Of a stretch of 48,846 nt of DNA, positions 41,483-48,644 are shown piece by piece. How positions within the stretch are numbered: position 1 is the first letter of the stretch; each line of letters opens with the position of its first letter. The notes under the pieces were generated by a model. It saw only the letters and a program-made list of their open reading frames with translations. It searched no databases and had not been told where the DNA came from. The translations under genes were made by a program, and so were the position numbers. The DNA is from Microcaldota archaeon (GTDB lineage Archaea; Micrarchaeota; Micrarchaeia; Burarchaeales; Fermentimicrarchaeaceae): assembly GCA_013425335.1 (NCBI GenBank), contig JACCLG010000045.1:1-48846 (forward strand), in the 5' to 3' direction.

Positions 41483-42202
41483 ATGGCGTTCAAAAGAGTT
41501 GCAACTGGGATTGAGGAGCTGGACAAGATAGTTGAGGGCGGGTTCCCTGAGGGTTCCGCAATACTTGTGAAAGGTTCCCCCGGTACTTTGAAGACAATCT
41601 TGGGCTTGCAATTCCTTTACAACGGGGCAAAGCAGTACAAGGAGAAGGGAACGTACGTCAGCTTCACGCAGAGTGAGGAGAGCCTTATACAGCAGGCGGA
41701 GATGTTTGGGTGGGATTTCAAGAATCTTCCAGTAGAGTTCAAAAACTATGATATAACGCGGGAGCCTGATTTGGAGGGAATGGTTGTTTCCGATATAAAG
41801 ACGTTCAAGCCCGCCAGAGTTGTGGTCGATTCTCTTACATCATTCCTGAGCAAGCTTCCCCTGAGCAGGGAGGAGTTTGTGAATGACCAGATATTCGAGG
41901 CATTGAAGAAAGTGGGCGGCATACCCATATCCGAAGACATGCTGCTGAGGGCATTGACAACGAGGTTCATAAGGAGGATGAGGGAGGCAGACGCGAGCAC
42001 AGTGATGTATATTTACGAGGAGAGAACGTTTGAGAGCGCCAAGGAAACCTGTGAGTACCTTGTGGATGGAGTTGTGAAGATGTCGAAGATAGAGGCGCTT
42101 GGCAAAAGAACGATGGTAGTGGAGAAGATGAGGCTGACCAAGCACGACTTCCTCGCAAGGACGATAAGTGTGGGGCCGAAGGGAATTGTAGTGGAGAAGT
42201 AA
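41483..42202 (+). CDS. KaiC-like RecA-fold protein with altered Walker A
   Basis: A 239-residue single-domain KaiC/RAD55-type protein. It starts FKRVATGIEELDKIVEGGFP. The Walker A is GSPGTLKT (31-38), with Leu where the invariant Gly of GKT usually stands. The rest is intact: YVSFTQSEESLIQQAEMFGW (Glu-rich catalytic segment), KPARVVVDSLTSFL (Walker B) and HDFLARTISVGPKGIVVE at the C terminus. Such proteins often act in signalling. The Leu may reduce ATP binding. Its stop abuts that of the convergent GG-reductase gene. Confidence 0.88.
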   Translation: MAFKRVATGIEELDKIVEGGFPEGSAILVKGSPGTLKTILGLQFLYNGAKQYKEKGTYVSFTQSEESLIQQAEMFGWDFKNLPVEFKNYDITREPDLEGMVVSDIKTFKPARVVVDSLTSFLSKLPLSREEFVNDQIFEALKKVGGIPISEDMLLRALTTRFIRRMREADASTVMYIYEERTFESAKETCEYLVDGVVKMSKIEALGKRTMVVEKMRLTKHDFLARTISVGPKGIVVEK

Positions 42203-43276
42203 TTACAAATTAAAAATCCTGCTCTTTTTTTTCATATAATCTTGTAAGTTATCTATATTTTTGTATATTGCAATTAGGGATTCATAATCCTGATTTGTCA
42301 TTTTTTGTATCATTGATCTGGCTTTTAAACCTTCTTTCAGCTCTTGTAAAAATGAATTTTTCCACAATTGGTCATAGTCGTATTTCTCAAGAATGGAATT
42401 TGCTGCGAAATAGCCTGAGAGCAGAGCATATCTAAATCCGAATCCCTTTGAGGCTTCGCCAAAACCCGCTGCTTCGCCTATGTAATACTTGCCTTTTATG
42501 ATTGCTGTCTTTGGTAGAAAATAGTCGGATATATAAGAGAAATGACTTAGTTCTGTTGCACCATCTATAATTTCGGAAAGTATTTTGTTTTCTTTTAATG
42601 CCTTTCCGAAAATTTTAGGCATTTCTTTAAATTTGGAGACATCAAATCCTACAGAGGCTATTGTAACGCTCTCTTTGAAAGGAGCGACATATAGGTAACC
42701 TTGAGGTGCATAGTTCATATCATAGAAAATGTATATTGTATTGTTTTCAATGCTTGCGTCTACAAAGTTAGCACCATATCCAAACTTACAAGGATAATCC
42801 CCCGCAGTACCTGACCCTACGCGGCTATAAGGCGCCTCGCCAAGCCCCGTAATCTTTACGTCTCTGGCACCAGTTGCTATTACGTCCACATCTTCAAAAT
42901 CTGCTGCTTTACCGAATATGAATTCAACCCCATTATTTTTGCACCTTTCATATAAGTTTGCTTCAATACTTTCTGATGATTTCCCCCGCAGTACATTATA
43001 AAAAAGTGGTTTTTTGGATTTTAGAGTTTGGCAATTAAGCGACGGCGAGAATTTTTTACTTGTATAGATTGGGTAAAGGGAGACATTCTTAAACCCTATT
43101 TCTTTTAATTCTTCATTAAAATCCTTTTGAGTATTGTACGCTCTAACTGCAAAAACACTTTGCCCAAATTTAGCCCCTAAGTCTTTAGACTTCTCGAAGA
43201 CTGTAACTTCCTGCGACTCCGATAATTTAGCTGCACATGAAAGACCAGAAATGCCTGCACCTGCTATTTTTGTCAT
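42203..43276 (-). CDS. Geranylgeranyl reductase family flavoprotein
   Basis: A 357-residue FAD protein. The dinucleotide loop is IAGAGISGLSCAAKL followed by VTVFEKS. The second FAD segment is YYIGEAAGFGEASKGFGFRY, and the membrane-lipid reductase family pattern continues ALLSGYFAANSILE. Relatives reduce the double bonds of geranylgeranyl chains in archaeal lipids (archaeol synthesis) or in chlorophyll side chains (ChlP/BchP). The order UbiA, V4R, GG-reductase on one strand suggests a prenylated product as substrate. TATA-like ATTTATTTATATG lies upstream (about 43310-43322). Confidence 0.85.
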   Translation of the reverse strand: MTKIAGAGISGLSCAAKLSESQEVTVFEKSKDLGAKFGQSVFAVRAYNTQKDFNEELKEIGFKNVSLYPIYTSKKFSPSLNCQTLKSKKPLFYNVLRGKSSESIEANLYERCKNNGVEFIFGKAADFEDVDVIATGARDVKITGLGEAPYSRVGSGTAGDYPCKFGYGANFVDASIENNTIYIFYDMNYAPQGYLYVAPFKESVTIASVGFDVSKFKEMPKIFGKALKENKILSEIIDGATELSHFSYISDYFLPKTAIIKGKYYIGEAAGFGEASKGFGFRYALLSGYFAANSILEKYDYDQLWKNSFLQELKEGLKARSMIQKMTNQDYESLIAIYKNIDNLQDYMKKKSRIFNL

Positions 43277-43390
43277 AAAAATTCTTTGGATATCTATTCT
43301 TAACCTCTATATTTATTTATATGTTATTAAAGCCGGTACTATGTTAGAATTTTGGGTATTGCATTCAGTGAGCAAAAATAGTGTGATAGA

Positions 43391-44536
43391 TCATTCGGAT
43401 AGTATGAGTGTGAGGTACCCATTGCGTTCTTCTTTCTCTATCTTTTGCAGTTCTATCTTTTTGTTTTCAAAAGTGGTAAGAATACCAGAGAACATACCAC
43501 GTATCGAAACAAAGTTTATGTTTCTTGCAAGAGGAAGCCATGGAAAATAGTTAATTATAACTTCGTATTTTCCTTTTGATTTGCTTGCCATTACGTCTCC
43601 GTACCCAAGCGCAGGGAAGAAATCCGTAATGAATTTGCAACCATCTTTCATATCTAGGGAAAGTTTGCCTAAATGCTCCCCGTACTCAAAGGATACATCC
43701 CATAGGACACTCAACCCATTTTGATTTTTTGAGTCATACTGACTCAATTCATTTTCGATTATATACAAAAGACTTGCTTCACAGATAAAAAAGCGTTCTT
43801 TTTTATACTCCATCTTTCCATGCTCAAAAGAAAAAAAACCTGAATCCCATAGATTTTTGAATGAGTTTTTCCCCCACTTAAGAGGGTGTAACATATTCAT
43901 ACGTTCGTATTCAGTCCCATAATCAGAATCCTTTTCTATCAAATCAGTTTTTATTTCGAGGTGCGGTAAAGGTTTCAGCCCCATTTTTTCTAACTGCTCC
44001 TTCGATGATACTACGAGAGAGCATTCGACGTCTCCTCTACCTTGACACTGTGTTTGAACTGCCTCAACGTCTATATCATCGAAAAGATATGAAAAAATAC
44101 CCGCAGCACCTCCTTCGGTAATAAGGTGTCCGAGACCATTTTTACTGCAAACAATATAATCCTTCATTTTTAATGAGAAGATTCTATTTTGAGAATCCAA
44201 TGAATGAGAGATTTCTGATGCGAATACTGACTCCATATAGCGTACCATAAAATACAGGAAACTTGTAAAAACCGTAGAGTTGGTTGAGGTAATTTGCGGT
44301 GAACCGAGAAGCTTTGTATAGGAATAGCCAAATTGCTTACCGATCTTGTAGGAGAGGGATGGATCAATTTTCTTTTCGAGATCAGAGATAAAGGTTTCTG
44401 GTAGTAGGATATTCCTAATTCTCAATTTTCGTCCCTTATCCGTAAACTCTTCTGTTATAAAACCGGGTACATCAAGTCTTACCTGATTTCTCATAAGAAG
44501 ATTTCTTACAAGCCATTTGGCAATTTCATCTTTCAT
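43391..44536 (-). CDS. Double V4R-like domain protein
   Basis: A 381-residue protein. The first module (about 25-190) ends with the V4R signature GAAGIFSYLFDDIDVEAVQ then CQGRGDVECSLVV, two cysteines spaced as in V4R small-molecule-binding domains (XylR N-terminal/BchJ-like). The second half (about 250-381) repeats the plan, with SLLYIIENELSQYDSK, SFEYGEHLGKLSLDMKDG, ITDFFPALGYGDVM and YEVIINYFPWLPLARN, but without the cysteines. Neither half has an HTH or output domain. It overlaps UbiA by 4 nt. Binding of a hydrophobic ligand is inferred from the family. Confidence 0.7.
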   Translation of the reverse strand: MKDEIAKWLVRNLLMRNQVRLDVPGFITEEFTDKGRKLRIRNILLPETFISDLEKKIDPSLSYKIGKQFGYSYTKLLGSPQITSTNSTVFTSFLYFMVRYMESVFASEISHSLDSQNRIFSLKMKDYIVCSKNGLGHLITEGGAAGIFSYLFDDIDVEAVQTQCQGRGDVECSLVVSSKEQLEKMGLKPLPHLEIKTDLIEKDSDYGTEYERMNMLHPLKWGKNSFKNLWDSGFFSFEHGKMEYKKERFFICEASLLYIIENELSQYDSKNQNGLSVLWDVSFEYGEHLGKLSLDMKDGCKFITDFFPALGYGDVMASKSKGKYEVIINYFPWLPLARNINFVSIRGMFSGILTTFENKKIELQKIEKEERNGYLTLILSE

Positions 44537-45381
44537 ACGAACACCAAACGCAACAGCACACTAAAAAAACCTAAAAGGGCAAGGAAGGCATCGGCGTATA
44601 ACTCCGTGACTATCTTTATGTCTTCAACATCAATTCGGGAGATTACCAATAGTGTATATAAGCTTGTTAAAGTAAATATCAGATATTCTTTTCCTAAATT
44701 TATGTATAGCGCGAGTGAAAAAAGAAGCAGTATAGCAGTCATAACGTTAAGCAGTCTTTTTGTATTTTTTTCACCAAAAATTACAGGAGCCGTCATTACA
44801 TTATTCTTCTTATCACCTTGAACATCACGAAGATCAAAGATAATTGTATTTATGGCACAAAGTGATCCAACAAGTATAATGTAATAAATTGTTTTACTTG
44901 AAATCGTTGCCTGAAAAAAAATCTGCGGGAGAACAACTAATGAGGCAGACCAAACAATCCCCAGAAAAATGTTTTTTAAAAATAAAATATCTTTGAGTCT
45001 AAAATTACCGATGTGGAGTCCATAAATGGTCATTGAGAAGGTAGTTAGTAGTATAAAAATGAATGAATTTGTATTTTGAAGAAAGCTGAGGATAAGAGCT
45101 AGCGCATAGAAAAATAATGTTGCCAACATAAATAAATGCATTTTATTTTTGATAAAATTAGTCCTTATGGGGTAAGTTTCAAGATCTTGTTTAAGCTCCA
45201 TATAACGATTCATGGAATAAAGAGATAGGGGAGCCGAAAATTCCATTATTGCAAATGGAAGTGTGAAGGGAAGACCAAACTGAAGTGTCATTCCATACGC
45301 ACAAAAAAGCGCTGACAAAGCCATGTAGACATTCGAATATACAAAGTAATCAAAAAAAATATTTAGATATTTGGTCGCCAT
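44533..45381 (-). CDS. UbiA-family prenyltransferase
   Basis: A 282-residue integral membrane enzyme with about eight hydrophobic segments. The second Asp-rich motif DLRDVQGDKKNNVMTAP (DxxDxxxD) is intact. The first reads YSMNRYMELKQDLETYPIR, where the usual first Asp of NxxxDxxxD is Glu. UbiA enzymes join a prenyl diphosphate to an acceptor: glycerol lipid (DGGGP synthase), quinone ring or tetrapyrrole (ChlG/BchG). Acceptor here is unknown. An AGGAG lies 5 nt before the ATG. Stop overlaps the V4R start. Confidence 0.88.
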   Translation of the reverse strand: MATKYLNIFFDYFVYSNVYMALSALFCAYGMTLQFGLPFTLPFAIMEFSAPLSLYSMNRYMELKQDLETYPIRTNFIKNKMHLFMLATLFFYALALILSFLQNTNSFIFILLTTFSMTIYGLHIGNFRLKDILFLKNIFLGIVWSASLVVLPQIFFQATISSKTIYYIILVGSLCAINTIIFDLRDVQGDKKNNVMTAPVIFGEKNTKRLLNVMTAILLLFSLALYINLGKEYLIFTLTSLYTLLVISRIDVEDIKIVTELYADAFLALLGFFSVLLRLVFV

Positions 45382-45410
45382 AATGACTCCTGATTTAGGA
45401 TTTGGACCGG

Positions 45411-46151
45411 TTATGCTTGTATTGCTATGCCCGTGCCAGTAATCTCGTATGATCGGGGACCACCATGTATATTGGTTCGTCGCATCTTTCTTACTTCGAT
45501 ACTTCTATGTAGGTTATCACCCATCGATACGTGTTTCAATAGAATTACTCCGTCAGACAGGAACTCAGACATCGTGTCCCTGCTAAGGAAGGCAGTTTCT
45601 TCTGGCAGTTCGGATACTACCAACGAGGTTAATTTTAGATTTTTAATGCACTCGATCATGTCTATTATCGCGTGTCGGGTAGCTACTTCGGGAGTTGTGA
45701 CGAATTGAAATTTATCTGCCTCAACTCCCATCATTTGCATTATTTCCATCTGTTTTAATGTTTCAGCATACAACCCGTAGGTGGATATGGAATCTAGCAC
45801 TAGGCGAGACGGAGAGAAGTTTCTTACCGAATCCCCAATAATATTTGTCACGTTTATAAATTGGGTCTTGGAGGGCGCCAGCGCTAGGATTTTAAACATG
45901 TTTTTATTTTCCATCTCGACTAGATCCCAACCCAGCTGAGATGCCTGTGAGATTACATCCTCTCTACTCTCTTCGAATGTTATAAACAATCCTTTCTCGT
46001 TGTATAACTCCGCACCCTTGACTAGATACTGCAGAGCAAGAATGGTCTTCCCAGAACCTGTTAGACCCGAAAGTAGCACAACATTATTCTTTGGGATACC
46101 GCCATCCATTAATTCATCTAATCCCACTATTCCTGTTTTTACTCTGTCCAT
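45411..46151 (-). CDS. KaiC/RadA-like ATPase
   Basis: A 246-residue single-domain RecA-fold protein. Walker A is intact, GLTGSGKT. The catalytic Glu pair is in LFITFEESREDVISQ, Walker B region RLVLDSISTYGL, and the arginine-rich loop IEVRKMRRTNIHGGPRSYEI matches KaiC proteins. It lies 29 nt upstream of UbiA on the same strand, so it is probably part of the island's operon, perhaps a switch or scaffold. The paralogue at 41483 has a damaged P-loop. Confidence 0.9.
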   Translation of the reverse strand: MDRVKTGIVGLDELMDGGIPKNNVVLLSGLTGSGKTILALQYLVKGAELYNEKGLFITFEESREDVISQASQLGWDLVEMENKNMFKILALAPSKTQFINVTNIIGDSVRNFSPSRLVLDSISTYGLYAETLKQMEIMQMMGVEADKFQFVTTPEVATRHAIIDMIECIKNLKLTSLVVSELPEETAFLSRDTMSEFLSDGVILLKHVSMGDNLHRSIEVRKMRRTNIHGGPRSYEITGTGIAIQA

Positions 46152-46258: not shown

Positions 46259-47287
46259 CTAGCGTGGGTATTTTGTCTTTCCTGTGTTGATGATAAGCAT
46301 CTTCCTGTTACTCGGCAGCTGGTTTTTCATCTGCAGCATTAGTGCCAAGCCGGCAATTCCGGAGTATTCACAGGTTATCCCCTGCGATTCCGCAATATCC
46401 ATTGCCTTATCAAGATAGTTTTCTTTTATTAGGTAAATATCTGACGTAGAATTGCAGAAACCAGAAGACCTGTAGAGTTTTATCCATTGTTCATCGACAT
46501 GCAAAAATGGCAGATGGGGAGAGTAGAGCTTGTCAGCTTTCGTTGCAGGGTTGTTTGAAGTTGCAGCCATAAAAGCGCATCTTCGCAAAACTTCTATTTT
46601 ACCCTTAAACCTCGGGTCATGGTTCTTTGTTGAAACTTCTTTTTTGTTGATATTGAGAATGTTTGCATACAGACTTCCACTTCCGAATGGGATGAAACAG
46701 TAGTTTGGGGAGCTGTTGAGTACTTCATAACTCATCCAGTCAAAATATCTTGTAGATGGGTCCAATGCTTCATTAGAGGTAATGTCAAATCCGTTATGGT
46801 TGTAGGTCATGATCAAAATTTCTTCCCAGCTGAGCGGTTTTTTCACTAGATCAGTATCATGAACCTCGCAACCTAATTTTTTCATTGATTCTATTGCTTT
46901 AGAATCGACCATGCTGGAGTCTATCAAGACTTTTAGTCTTGGCAACTTGTATTTTTTAAACTGAGTCTGGATTGCAATTGCTGCAGCACCAGAAGAGATT
47001 ATCGACATATGAGGTAACGGCCCTTTGATCTGCCCTCTCTTTTTTGCAAGAAGGAAATCCCTGTAGGTCACAACCATCTCCCAGGCCATCCTGTCCTTGT
47101 GTGTTCCTGTGGGGTTTACGCTCTCATCCTTGAGCCATACGTTAGAAAACCCCGGAACCTCTATCTTGTAGGTGGGCGTAGCCGGGAACTTCGGCTTGTC
47201 TGGTGGAAACTCAGGTTTATGCGGGTCATTCTCTGAAGCCACTACTATGGACCTCAGTATTTTCTCCTCATTGCCTGAAAGTGCCAT
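46259..47287 (-). CDS. Fold-type II PLP protein, threonine synthase-like, copy 1
   Basis: A 342-residue protein. The PLP lysine is in WLKDESVNPTGTHKDRMAW. The Gly-rich phosphate loop is YCFIPFGSGSLY, and the C-terminal segment LIINTGKTKYP fits the family. The usual Ser-x-Gly-Asn loop is IISSGAAAIA: Asn is missing. It lacks the N-terminal Zn ribbon of some archaeal threonine synthases. Substrate unknown. It is a tandem duplicate of the gene at 47465-48499. A TATA-like TTTTTATTT sits 26 nt before its ATG, so it can be transcribed alone. Confidence 0.85.
   Translation of the reverse strand: MALSGNEEKILRSIVVASENDPHKPEFPPDKPKFPATPTYKIEVPGFSNVWLKDESVNPTGTHKDRMAWEMVVTYRDFLLAKKRGQIKGPLPHMSIISSGAAAIAIQTQFKKYKLPRLKVLIDSSMVDSKAIESMKKLGCEVHDTDLVKKPLSWEEILIMTYNHNGFDITSNEALDPSTRYFDWMSYEVLNSSPNYCFIPFGSGSLYANILNINKKEVSTKNHDPRFKGKIEVLRRCAFMAATSNNPATKADKLYSPHLPFLHVDEQWIKLYRSSGFCNSTSDIYLIKENYLDKAMDIAESQGITCEYSGIAGLALMLQMKNQLPSNRKMLIINTGKTKYPR
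46589..46660. repeat. 72-bp block identical to 47795-47866
   Basis: The two PLP genes are identical over these 72 bases, including third codon positions, while flanking sequence differs. Offset 1206 bp. Confidence 0.9.
46873..46944. repeat. 72-bp block identical to 48085-48156
   Basis: A second identical stretch shared by the two PLP genes at an offset of 1212 bp. The 6-bp offset change from the first block reflects a two-residue indel (NQ insertion before TWEE in copy 2). Confidence 0.9.
47046..47107. repeat. 62-bp block identical to 48258-48319
   Basis: A third identical stretch at offset 1212 bp, covering the PLP-lysine side of the active site (codons for THKDRMAWEMV onward). Confidence 0.9.
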
Positions 47288-47464: not shown

Positions 47465-48499
47465 TTATAAGGGATATTTTGTTTTTCCAGTGTTGACGAT
47501 AAGCATTTTCTTATTCTTCGGCAGCTGGTTTTTCATCTGCAGCATTAATGCCAAGCCGGCAATTCCGGAATATTCGCAATTTATTCCCTGCGATTTTGCG
47601 ATATCCATTGCTTTGTCAAGGTAGTTTTCTTTTATTAGGTAAATATCCGAGAGAGGACCGCAGAAACCTGCGGACCTGTAAACTCTTATCCACTGCTCAC
47701 TGAAGTGTATGAACGGTAGATATGGAGAATAGAGTTTATCTGCTTTCGTTGTGGGGTTATCCGAAGTCACGCCCATGAAGTTACATCTTCGCAGAACTTC
47801 TATTTTACCCTTAAACCTCGGGTCATGGTTCTTTGTTGAAACTTCTTTTTTGTTGATATTGAGAATATTTTCATACAAGTTTCCAGTTCCAAATGGGATA
47901 AAGCAATAATTTGGAGAACTATTTAGTATTTCATAACTAAGCCAGTCATAAAATCTGGTAGTTGGGTCCAATGCTTCATTGGAGGTAATATCAAATCCAT
48001 TATGGTTGTGGGTTAGTGTCAGAATTTCCTCCCAAGTTTGATTAAGTGGCTTTTTCGCTAGGTTGGCCTGGTAGATCTCACAGTCTAATTTTTTCATTGA
48101 TTCTATTGCTTTAGAATCGACCATGCTGGAGTCTATCAAGACTTTTAGTCTTGGCAGATTATATTTTTTTAGCTGTGTTTGAATTGCAACTGCTGCCGGA
48201 CCGAATGATATTATAGATAGCTGAGGTAGAGGCTTCTTGATTTGACCACTCTTCTTAGCAAGAAGGAAATCCCTGTAGGTCACAACCATCTCCCAGGCCA
48301 TCCTGTCCTTGTGTGTTCCAGTCGGGTTCTTACTCTCATCTTTAAGCCACACATCGGAGAAGTCTGGAACTTTGATTTTATAAGTCGGCGTGGCAGGAAA
48401 TTTAGGATTGTCAGCTGGGAACTCTGGTTTGTTTGGATTATTCTCAGAAGCTACCACTATGGATTTAAGTATTTTTTCTTCTTTTTCCGAAAGAACCAT
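47465..48499 (-). CDS. Fold-type II PLP protein, threonine synthase-like, copy 2
   Basis: A 344-residue tandem paralogue. ATG 48499 is chosen since GGAGGGTGAT precedes it; the GTG at 48508 would add three residues. The PLP-lysine segment is WLKDESKNPTGTHKDRMAW, phosphate loop YCFIPFGTGNLY, tail LIVNTGKTKYP. The Asn-loop is IISFGPAAVA, differing from copy 1 (SSGAAA) and also lacking Asn. Sequence differs in HFSEQWIRVYRSAGFCGPLS versus HVDEQWIKLYRSSGFCNSTS, near the likely substrate side. Its own TATA-like element is near 48530-48543. Function unknown. Confidence 0.85.
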   Translation of the reverse strand: MVLSEKEEKILKSIVVASENNPNKPEFPADNPKFPATPTYKIKVPDFSDVWLKDESKNPTGTHKDRMAWEMVVTYRDFLLAKKSGQIKKPLPQLSIISFGPAAVAIQTQLKKYNLPRLKVLIDSSMVDSKAIESMKKLDCEIYQANLAKKPLNQTWEEILTLTHNHNGFDITSNEALDPTTRFYDWLSYEILNSSPNYCFIPFGTGNLYENILNINKKEVSTKNHDPRFKGKIEVLRRCNFMGVTSDNPTTKADKLYSPYLPFIHFSEQWIRVYRSAGFCGPLSDIYLIKENYLDKAMDIAKSQGINCEYSGIAGLALMLQMKNQLPKNKKMLIVNTGKTKYPL

Positions 48500-48644
48500 A
48501 GGTATCACCCTCCGTCCTTCTATTTTTTTCTTATATCATTATATCCTGAAGAAATGTCATGAAGCTCGGCGGTATTAGGACTGACCTCTGCCCTGCAACG
48601 ACCACAAGGCTCTTTTCAATCGATACCATTGCTTTCAAACCCAT

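Follow-up and report, generated by a model that had tools for sequence, protein, structure and literature searches.

Why should a KaiC-family ATPase be encoded beside a UbiA prenyltransferase, a protein with two V4R domains and a flavoprotein resembling geranylgeranyl reductases (GGR)? Such a block lies at positions 42203-46151 of the window, the whole stretch of 48,846 nucleotides of a Micrarchaeota genome that was analysed. The bchG, bchJ and bchP genes of bacteriochlorophyll synthesis provide UbiA, V4R and GGR-type functions, and the block holds the same three protein classes. The question is whether the block belongs to a pigment pathway, to the core lipid pathway or to something different from both.

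The block and its surroundings

The features of the block, together with the gene next to it, are the following:

41483-42202, plus strand: second KaiC gene, stopping one base short of the block
42203-43276, minus strand: divergent geranylgeranyl-reductase-like flavoprotein, 357 aa
43391-44536, minus strand: double-V4R protein with two V4R/Bet3-fold domains in tandem, 381 aa
43394-43873, minus strand: C-terminal V4R domain, residues about 222-381
43982-44479, minus strand: N-terminal V4R domain, residues about 20-185
44021-44149, minus strand: cysteine triad (C130, C164, C172) in the N-terminal V4R domain
44533-45381, minus strand: divergent UbiA-family prenyltransferase, 282 aa, distinct from the core UbiA
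44812-44835, minus strand: second acidic motif of UbiA, DLRDVQGD
45184-45210, minus strand: first acidic motif of UbiA, NRYMELKQD
45411-46151, minus strand: KaiC-family single-domain ATPase, 246 aa, first gene of the block

The ORF coordinates bear out what the sequence-only reading had described: four genes on one strand, with a 4-nt overlap between the stop of the UbiA gene and the start of the double-V4R gene (44533-44536). The intergenic spacing is 29 nt between KaiC and UbiA, and 114 nt between V4R and GGR. The block is also richer in AT than its surroundings, as that reading had stated, with a GC content of 36.8% against 48.8% for window positions 1-42202 and 41.3% to the right of the block. 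An assembly chimera was considered as the origin of the AT-rich block and judged unlikely, because genes from both flanks have orthologs of 80-89% identity in congeners, although these are not adjacent there. The second KaiC is a native gene of the flank, being 89% identical in a congener. Four congener genomes (G001-G004) have no double-V4R gene and a single UbiA each, and two of them have retained the flanking-gene orthologs. No relative of the double-V4R protein was found among the IMG/VR viral contigs, and thus there is no sign of viral origin. The PADLOC models of anti-phage defence gave no system match, the sole hit being a weak one of the KaiC to a mad8 ATPase (E 3e-4).

Family assignment of the four proteins

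The KaiC protein scores over the Pfam KaiC cut-off (E 7e-55), matches KaiC (E 3e-56) and the single-domain PH0186 (E 6e-27) in the PDB, and has intact Walker A (GLTGSGKT), Walker B (LVLDSI) and FEE motifs. Circadian clock KaiC proteins have two tandem ATPase domains and KaiA and KaiB as partners. Assignment to this class was rejected for the block protein, which has one ATPase domain and reaches 114.8 of the 546 bits of circ_KaiC, below the cut-off.

The double-V4R protein scores below the Pfam V4R cut-off (E 0.0016, 18.9 bits against 31), a cut-off exceeded by its single-V4R relatives L080 and L152. A PDB search with the V4R sequence profile gave no match, and matches came from fold comparison alone. 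The AlphaFold model (pLDDT 83, pTM 0.86) has the V4R/Bet3 fold of five helices and a four-stranded sheet, and its Foldseek matches are the phenol sensors MopR and PoxR, Bet3/TPC6 and the V4R protein MJ1460. Diagnostic of V4R domains are glycine pairs with three-residue spacing in helices 2 and 5 (PMC2253512). The N-terminal domain has both, G66/G70 and G142/G146, present in at least 32 of the 33 relatives; in the C-terminal half the alpha-5 pair G347/G351 is found in at least 30 of 33, while the helix-2 pair is kept only partly. The assignment is settled by fold and profile evidence despite the weak Pfam score. The name 'double V4R', already given from the sequence, is right, as hhalign aligns the first half of the protein to the second in colinear order (E 1.5e-4) and the model has two domains. 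Fold and glycine pairs are thus common to this protein and the V4R/Bet3 family (the sensor domains of MopR, PoxR and DmpR; BchJ; TRAPP Bet3; MJ1460), and so is the cysteine cluster; the triad resembles that of sensor-type V4R domains and is complete in 9/33 relatives, all nine linked to UbiA. The window protein differs from the family in having two tandem domains and no fused output domain; its output apparently acts in trans via KaiC.

The UbiA protein scores 59.9 bits (E 3e-16) against a Pfam cut-off of 34.2 and has both Asp-rich motifs in the alignment. In the first, with N58, E62 and D66, position 62 is E in the window copy and D in most relatives; in the second, D183, D186 and D190 are invariant. 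The window copy is under all NCBIfam cut-offs, including PRK12882/12883, and the core copy of the genome is under PRK12882/12883 too. A profile of the V4R-linked UbiAs matched DGGGP synthase first among PDB entries (6m31, E 3e-36) and then chlorophyll synthase (E 1.5e-23).

The flavoprotein has the FAD motif GAGISG and the GGR-type motifs PQGYLYVAPF and GEAAGFGEASKGFG. It reaches none of the curated cut-offs, scoring 37 of 159 bits for TIGR02032 (E 2.5e-9) and 18.6 of 27 bits for GGR_cat (E 0.0017), and an AlphaFold model made from two input sequences was discarded (pLDDT 33). Judged by motifs and scores, the putative GGR identity is the weakest family assignment among the four genes. An ortholog (39% identity) is located beside PcrB and V4R at the locus L060.

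Core lipid genes and recurrence in other archaea

The core lipid pathway is a different set of genes from the block: elsewhere the same genome has a separate UbiA, a GGGP synthase over the NCBIfam cut-off and three GGRs over the TIGR02032 cut-off. The window UbiA shares with the DGGGP synthase branch the acidic motifs, the character of a membrane enzyme and the best PDB match. It differs by the E at position 62 and by its place on the tree, where linked UbiAs fall apart from the core UbiAs of Micrarchaeota with weak branch support (67/44) and long branches. On this tree it was not counted as a member of the core DGGGPS branch of archaea. The sequence-only reading had named plain ether-lipid synthesis as the main alternative for UbiA and GG-reductase, one that leaves V4R and KaiC unexplained. 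A UbiA of the DGGGP synthase clade with no second copy in the genome, and no co-occurrence with V4R elsewhere, would have refuted the proposed system. Neither is the case: there is a second UbiA, and the linkage with V4R and KaiC is strong in other genomes and phyla.

The double-V4R gene was found in 34 of 301 Micrarchaeota genomes. Outside this phylum, a search with five V4R sequences found it in Aenigmatarchaeota, Diapherotrites, Nanohaloarchaeota and one further archaeon. Two additional genomes from outside Micrarchaeota have the same linkage, in the gene orders KaiC-KaiC-V4R-PcrB-HAD (L157) and UbiA-V4R-KaiC (L158). A KaiC gene lies within 3 ORFs of 38 of the 43 double-V4R genes (39/44 entries, one gene being split), whereas about 5% of loci would be expected by chance, as the genome of the window has about 10 KaiC genes. 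An isoprenoid enzyme lies within the same distance of 29/43 genes (UbiA, PcrB or X289 in 30/44 entries): a divergent UbiA in 21, a divergent GGGP-synthase homologue in 5 and a remote UbiA-like protein in 3. Some V4R genes have neither KaiC nor an isoprenoid enzyme nearby (L076, L077, L080, L081, L159). The four genes together had been suggested as a set to be sought in other archaea; the linkage of KaiC, V4R and an isoprenoid enzyme does recur across phyla, but a GG-reductase is present in just three loci. What stays constant is therefore KaiC plus V4R, and the isoprenoid enzyme varies. Distances among V4R and KaiC proteins correlate (r 0.26, exceeding all 2000 permutations). Descent of the paired KaiCs as one co-inherited clade was rejected, as the tree requires 10 changes, and the KaiC partner has thus been exchanged. 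These data support a conserved set that looks undescribed and is more than plain ether-lipid synthesis.

PcrB/GGGP synthase is the partner at L024, L060, L061, L063, L100 and L157. The profile of these linked PcrBs places them in the TIM-barrel GGGP synthase family (5nez, E 1e-26), although the copy tested, L061, is below the NCBIfam cut-offs and an HAD phosphatase accompanies the linked PcrBs at the loci examined. Linked PcrBs have lost the acidic residue that precedes the GS(G) motif (E/D to A), which suggests another acceptor; this residue is kept in all alignable core GGGP synthases, the L135 ORF, called in the wrong frame, being left aside. Loss of the whole YxE motif was dropped as a specific mark of linked PcrBs, since core copies have D in place of E.

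Proposed function and its alternatives

The block represents an accessory module of double V4R, KaiC and isoprenoid enzymes that is patchily distributed across DPANN archaea; the data above show its genes and their families, the V4R fold, the conserved linkage, the separateness from the core pathway and the exchange of the enzyme partner. That the module makes and senses a special isoprenoid lipid is the likeliest mechanism, and we regard it as an evenly balanced proposition. The UbiA, or another isoprenoid-transferring enzyme at other loci, would make a lipid distinct from core archaeol, and the GGR-type flavoprotein would saturate or otherwise reduce its chain. The hydrophobic pocket of the double-V4R protein may hold this lipid or its precursor and, through physical contact with an ATP-driven KaiC switch, may either report the lipid level or gate the enzyme. 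More tentatively, and with somewhat less than even probability, the double-V4R protein binds the lipids of its own cassette and drives a KaiC output, as a signalling or membrane-remodelling circuit with exchangeable chemistry (UbiA, GGGPS-like protein with phosphatase, methyltransferase) in tiny host-associated archaea. KaiC-family proteins have been proposed as archaeal signalling hubs (Makarova, Galperin and Koonin 2017, cited in PMC5847659). As far as that citation describes them, the hubs likewise have a single-domain KaiC ATPase beside a sensor-domain protein, and the module adds to this the isoprenoid-lipid enzymes and the double V4R. In the literature searched, in which the hub study is represented by its citation, no coupling of KaiC to isoprenoid-lipid enzymes and double V4R was found.

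Synthesis of a prenylated pigment or cofactor of the bacteriochlorophyll or quinone kind is very unlikely, even though the three protein functions match bchG/bchJ/bchP and chlorophyll synthase comes second among the PDB matches of the UbiA profile. As the sequence-only reading had noted, no other pigment genes are seen: no ring-forming ones were found among the window ORFs read, and none stands out beside V4R in related loci. The analogy itself is not supported, as the UbiA is nearer to DGGGP synthase, KaiC is nearly always nearby, GGR is rare, and UbiA is replaced by PcrB and HAD at other loci; this last partner, of the GGGP synthase family with a phosphatase, favours an isoprenyl-glycerol-type lipid over a pigment. 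Coincidental neighbourhood has the least probability of all and is refuted by the KaiC counts given above, which span several phyla; V4R and KaiC are indeed large families common in archaea, UbiA and GGR could be ordinary lipid genes and V4R genes sometimes occur alone, but the core copy of UbiA is a different gene from that of the block.

It is improbable, though less so, that V4R is a carrier or chaperone and no sensor, which would pass what the membrane prenyltransferase uses or makes, a hydrophobic compound, on to a flavoprotein, methyltransferase or phosphatase as the following enzyme, with the KaiC ATPase loading or unloading it. A carrier would fit the hydrophobic channels of V4R/Bet3 folds, the matches by fold including palmitate complexes of TRAPP Bet3, and the tight genetic tie of V4R to the enzyme and not to transcription factors. 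By fold, however, the protein is closest to the phenol sensors found in transcription activators, and the KaiC family has the hub role proposed in the work cited in PMC5847659. Equally doubtful is a membrane-lipid homeostasis switch, in which UbiA or PcrB serves as another ether-lipid enzyme, while V4R-KaiC responds to the overall state of the membrane or to redox state and shifts the lipid composition accordingly; no lipid would be set apart for signalling. Such a switch would fit the nearness of linked UbiAs to DGGGP synthase, the family of the linked PcrBs and a cysteine triad that could sense redox or hold zinc; against it are the core enzymes elsewhere in the genome and the altered residue of the linked PcrBs.

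The module matters in several respects. In several phyla of tiny archaea the ATPase and the sensor-like protein recur together, beside interchangeable isoprenoid enzymes, and this suggests a so far undescribed means by which special membrane lipids are sensed or controlled. Archaea have many KaiC-like ATPases and V4R proteins, their inputs and outputs being mostly unassigned. Since the cassette links the two families repeatedly to enzymes that transfer isoprenoids, it names for each a definite class of ligand and a partner that can be tested. Bet3 is a V4R homologue and the lipid-binding part of a eukaryotic vesicle-tethering complex; if V4R binds archaeal isoprenoids, this would bear on how Bet3 arose. 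In DPANN archaea, lipids are suspected to matter in host contact, and it would be new to find accessory lipids there that have a switch of their own.

The four-gene block and its double-V4R protein

The block comprises four genes on the minus strand, given here in order of transcription:

45411-46151 (-), KaiC-family ATPase, above the Pfam cut-off
44533-45381 (-), UbiA-family protein, above the Pfam cut-off
43391-44536 (-), 381-aa double-V4R protein, weak V4R match by sequence (E 0.0016)
42203-43276 (-), flavoprotein resembling geranylgeranyl reductase (GGR), weak match by sequence (TIGR02032, E 2.5e-9)

A 4-nt overlap joins the UbiA gene to that of the 381-aa protein, and the GC content is 36.8% in the block versus 48.8% in positions 1-42202 and 41.3% to its right. 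ORFs and GC figures thus confirm the gene set, single strand, overlap and AT-richness described in the sequence-only reading. Upstream, 46259-47287 and 47465-48508 (-) are tandem PLP-dependent threonine-synthase-like genes of 82% mutual identity, the former under every NCBIfam threonine synthase cut-off; congeners G002 and G003 each carry a single copy.

An AlphaFold model of the double-V4R protein (15 sequences; pLDDT 83, pTM 0.86) has two alpha/beta domains. It was matched by Foldseek to the domains with which MopR and PoxR sense phenol, to TRAPP Bet3/TPC6 (one a palmitate complex) and Asgard TRAPPC3, and to the archaeal V4R protein MJ1460. The N and C halves align with each other (profile versus profile, E 1.5e-4). 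The glycine pairs that mark V4R/Bet3 (Podar et al., PMC2253512) are near-invariant in the N half; in the C half this applies to the helix-5 pair. Cysteines C130, C164 and C172, a likeness to sensor-type V4R domains, occur together in 9 of 33 relatives including that of the window, all nine being linked to UbiA.

Conservation of the module and exchange of its enzyme

The V4R/KaiC/isoprenoid-enzyme module is real and conserved. Double-V4R profile matches were found in 34 of 301 Micrarchaeota genomes, and a search of genome contigs, whose identical contigs and relatives gave the phylum its name here, also found relatives in Aenigmatarchaeota, Diapherotrites, Nanohaloarchaeota and one further archaeon. 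Neighbourhoods were examined for 44 V4R entries representing 43 genes, one being split. A KaiC gene lay within three ORFs of V4R in 39/44 entries (38/43 genes), where about 5% of loci are expected by chance from the about 10 KaiC genes of the window's genome, and an isoprenoid enzyme lay nearby in 30/44 entries (29/43 genes). The V4R proteins come from several phyla and are 21-45% identical to that of the window; their sequences are akin, and the counts are therefore not independent events. Outside Micrarchaeota, two more genomes have the same neighbourhood and one has V4R alone.

ATPase motifs are intact in the window KaiC and in most paired KaiCs. Clock KaiC was ruled out as its identity, the protein having a single domain. 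The paired KaiCs do not share one branch of the KaiC tree but are drawn from several (10 changes), and V4R and KaiC distances correlate (r 0.26, exceeding all 2000 permutations); thus the pair looks functional, though now and then re-formed with a new KaiC.

The enzyme is exchanged between loci. It is UbiA in 21 genes, a divergent homologue of GGGP synthase (PcrB; PDB 5nez, E 1e-26) accompanied by a HAD phosphatase in five loci plus locus L157, and a remote UbiA-like protein in three (hhalign probability 92%). A methyltransferase adjoins the latter in two of the three, and is found without it in two further loci. An ortholog of the window's GGR (39% identity) stands between PcrB and V4R in locus L060, and L078 has a different GGR-type gene. 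Linked UbiAs retain both acidic motifs, and their profile matches DGGGP synthase best (6m31, E 3e-36), chlorophyll synthase being next. In linked PcrBs the acidic residue ahead of the GSG motif, a D in the alignable core copies, is lost, which hints at another acceptor.

Several loci showed further features. Accessory PcrB homologues at L024, L060, L061, L063, L100 and L157, each with a HAD phosphatase, fall below NCBIfam cut-offs where tested and lack the acidic residue in 5/5 aligned; they may form a new subfamily of GGGPS. Small V4R-like genes (about 190 aa) lie beside or near double-V4R genes in L080, L085 and L087, with tandem runs in L080 and L087 and one weak MsvR match. Double-V4R genes without KaiC occur in L076 and L077; that of L077 adjoins genes for a PHO4-type transporter and a PhoU-like protein, which L076 may share, judging from its gene sizes. 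An in-frame TAG separates the halves of the double-V4R gene at L089:3713-4840 (archaeon S5B5_HD70, also genome G312), making it a pseudogene, a split gene or a case of stop-codon reassignment.

Separateness from core lipid synthesis

The window's genome (1.0 Mb, 89% complete) has, outside the block, another UbiA (contig 49), a GGGP synthase above the NCBIfam cut-off (contig 4) and three GG-reductases above the TIGR02032 cut-off. The block is independent of core lipid synthesis, and these separate enzymes bear out the earlier view that it is not plain ether-lipid synthesis. In a tree of 39 UbiAs, one branch parts 21 linked from 18 core sequences, with weak support (67/44) because of long branches; the window UbiA nevertheless groups with other linked UbiAs in a starred branch. 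All four congeners lack double-V4R and have a single UbiA each, yet genes flanking the block on both sides have orthologs, at separate places, in G002 and G003, so that the block most probably represents an accessory island amid native surroundings.

Two other islands were seen in these congeners. That of G002 (L152:4538-12033) adjoins the ortholog of the window's second KaiC (41483-42202, +). Small V4R-type proteins stand there in a row of about six, of which the three tested all exceed the Pfam V4R cut-off; the island also encodes a FIST-domain protein (NosP-like) and two flavoproteins, one GGR-like and the other amine-oxidase/HpnE-like. In that of G003 (L155:10521-15377), which adjoins the PALP ortholog, an amine oxidase accompanies two flavoproteins of GGR type. 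Within the genus, such flavoproteins seem to co-travel with V4R.

Competing readings and proposed mechanism

The set had been likened to bchG/bchJ/bchP of bacteriochlorophyll synthesis. This analogy found no support: the surroundings of the block showed no pigment genes, other loci have PcrB with HAD phosphatase in place of UbiA, and among solved UbiA structures DGGGP synthase is the nearest. V4R may be a carrier, or the module may have a general role in membrane homeostasis.

A literature search, which did not cover the KaiC hub paper itself, found no paper linking KaiC and V4R with UbiA or GGGPS. PMC5847659 cites a signalling-hub role of archaeal KaiC-like ATPases. A 2025 Micrarchaeota survey (PMC12892359), in which KaiC goes unmentioned, describes every major lineage as having both GGGPS and DGGGPS. 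The module is probably undescribed so far, its component families being already known.

A plausible mechanism is that the enzyme would make an accessory isoprenoid lipid, whose chain the flavoprotein would reduce; V4R, known members of whose fold bind hydrophobic molecules, would bind this lipid or a precursor, and KaiC would convert the binding into an ATP-dependent output.
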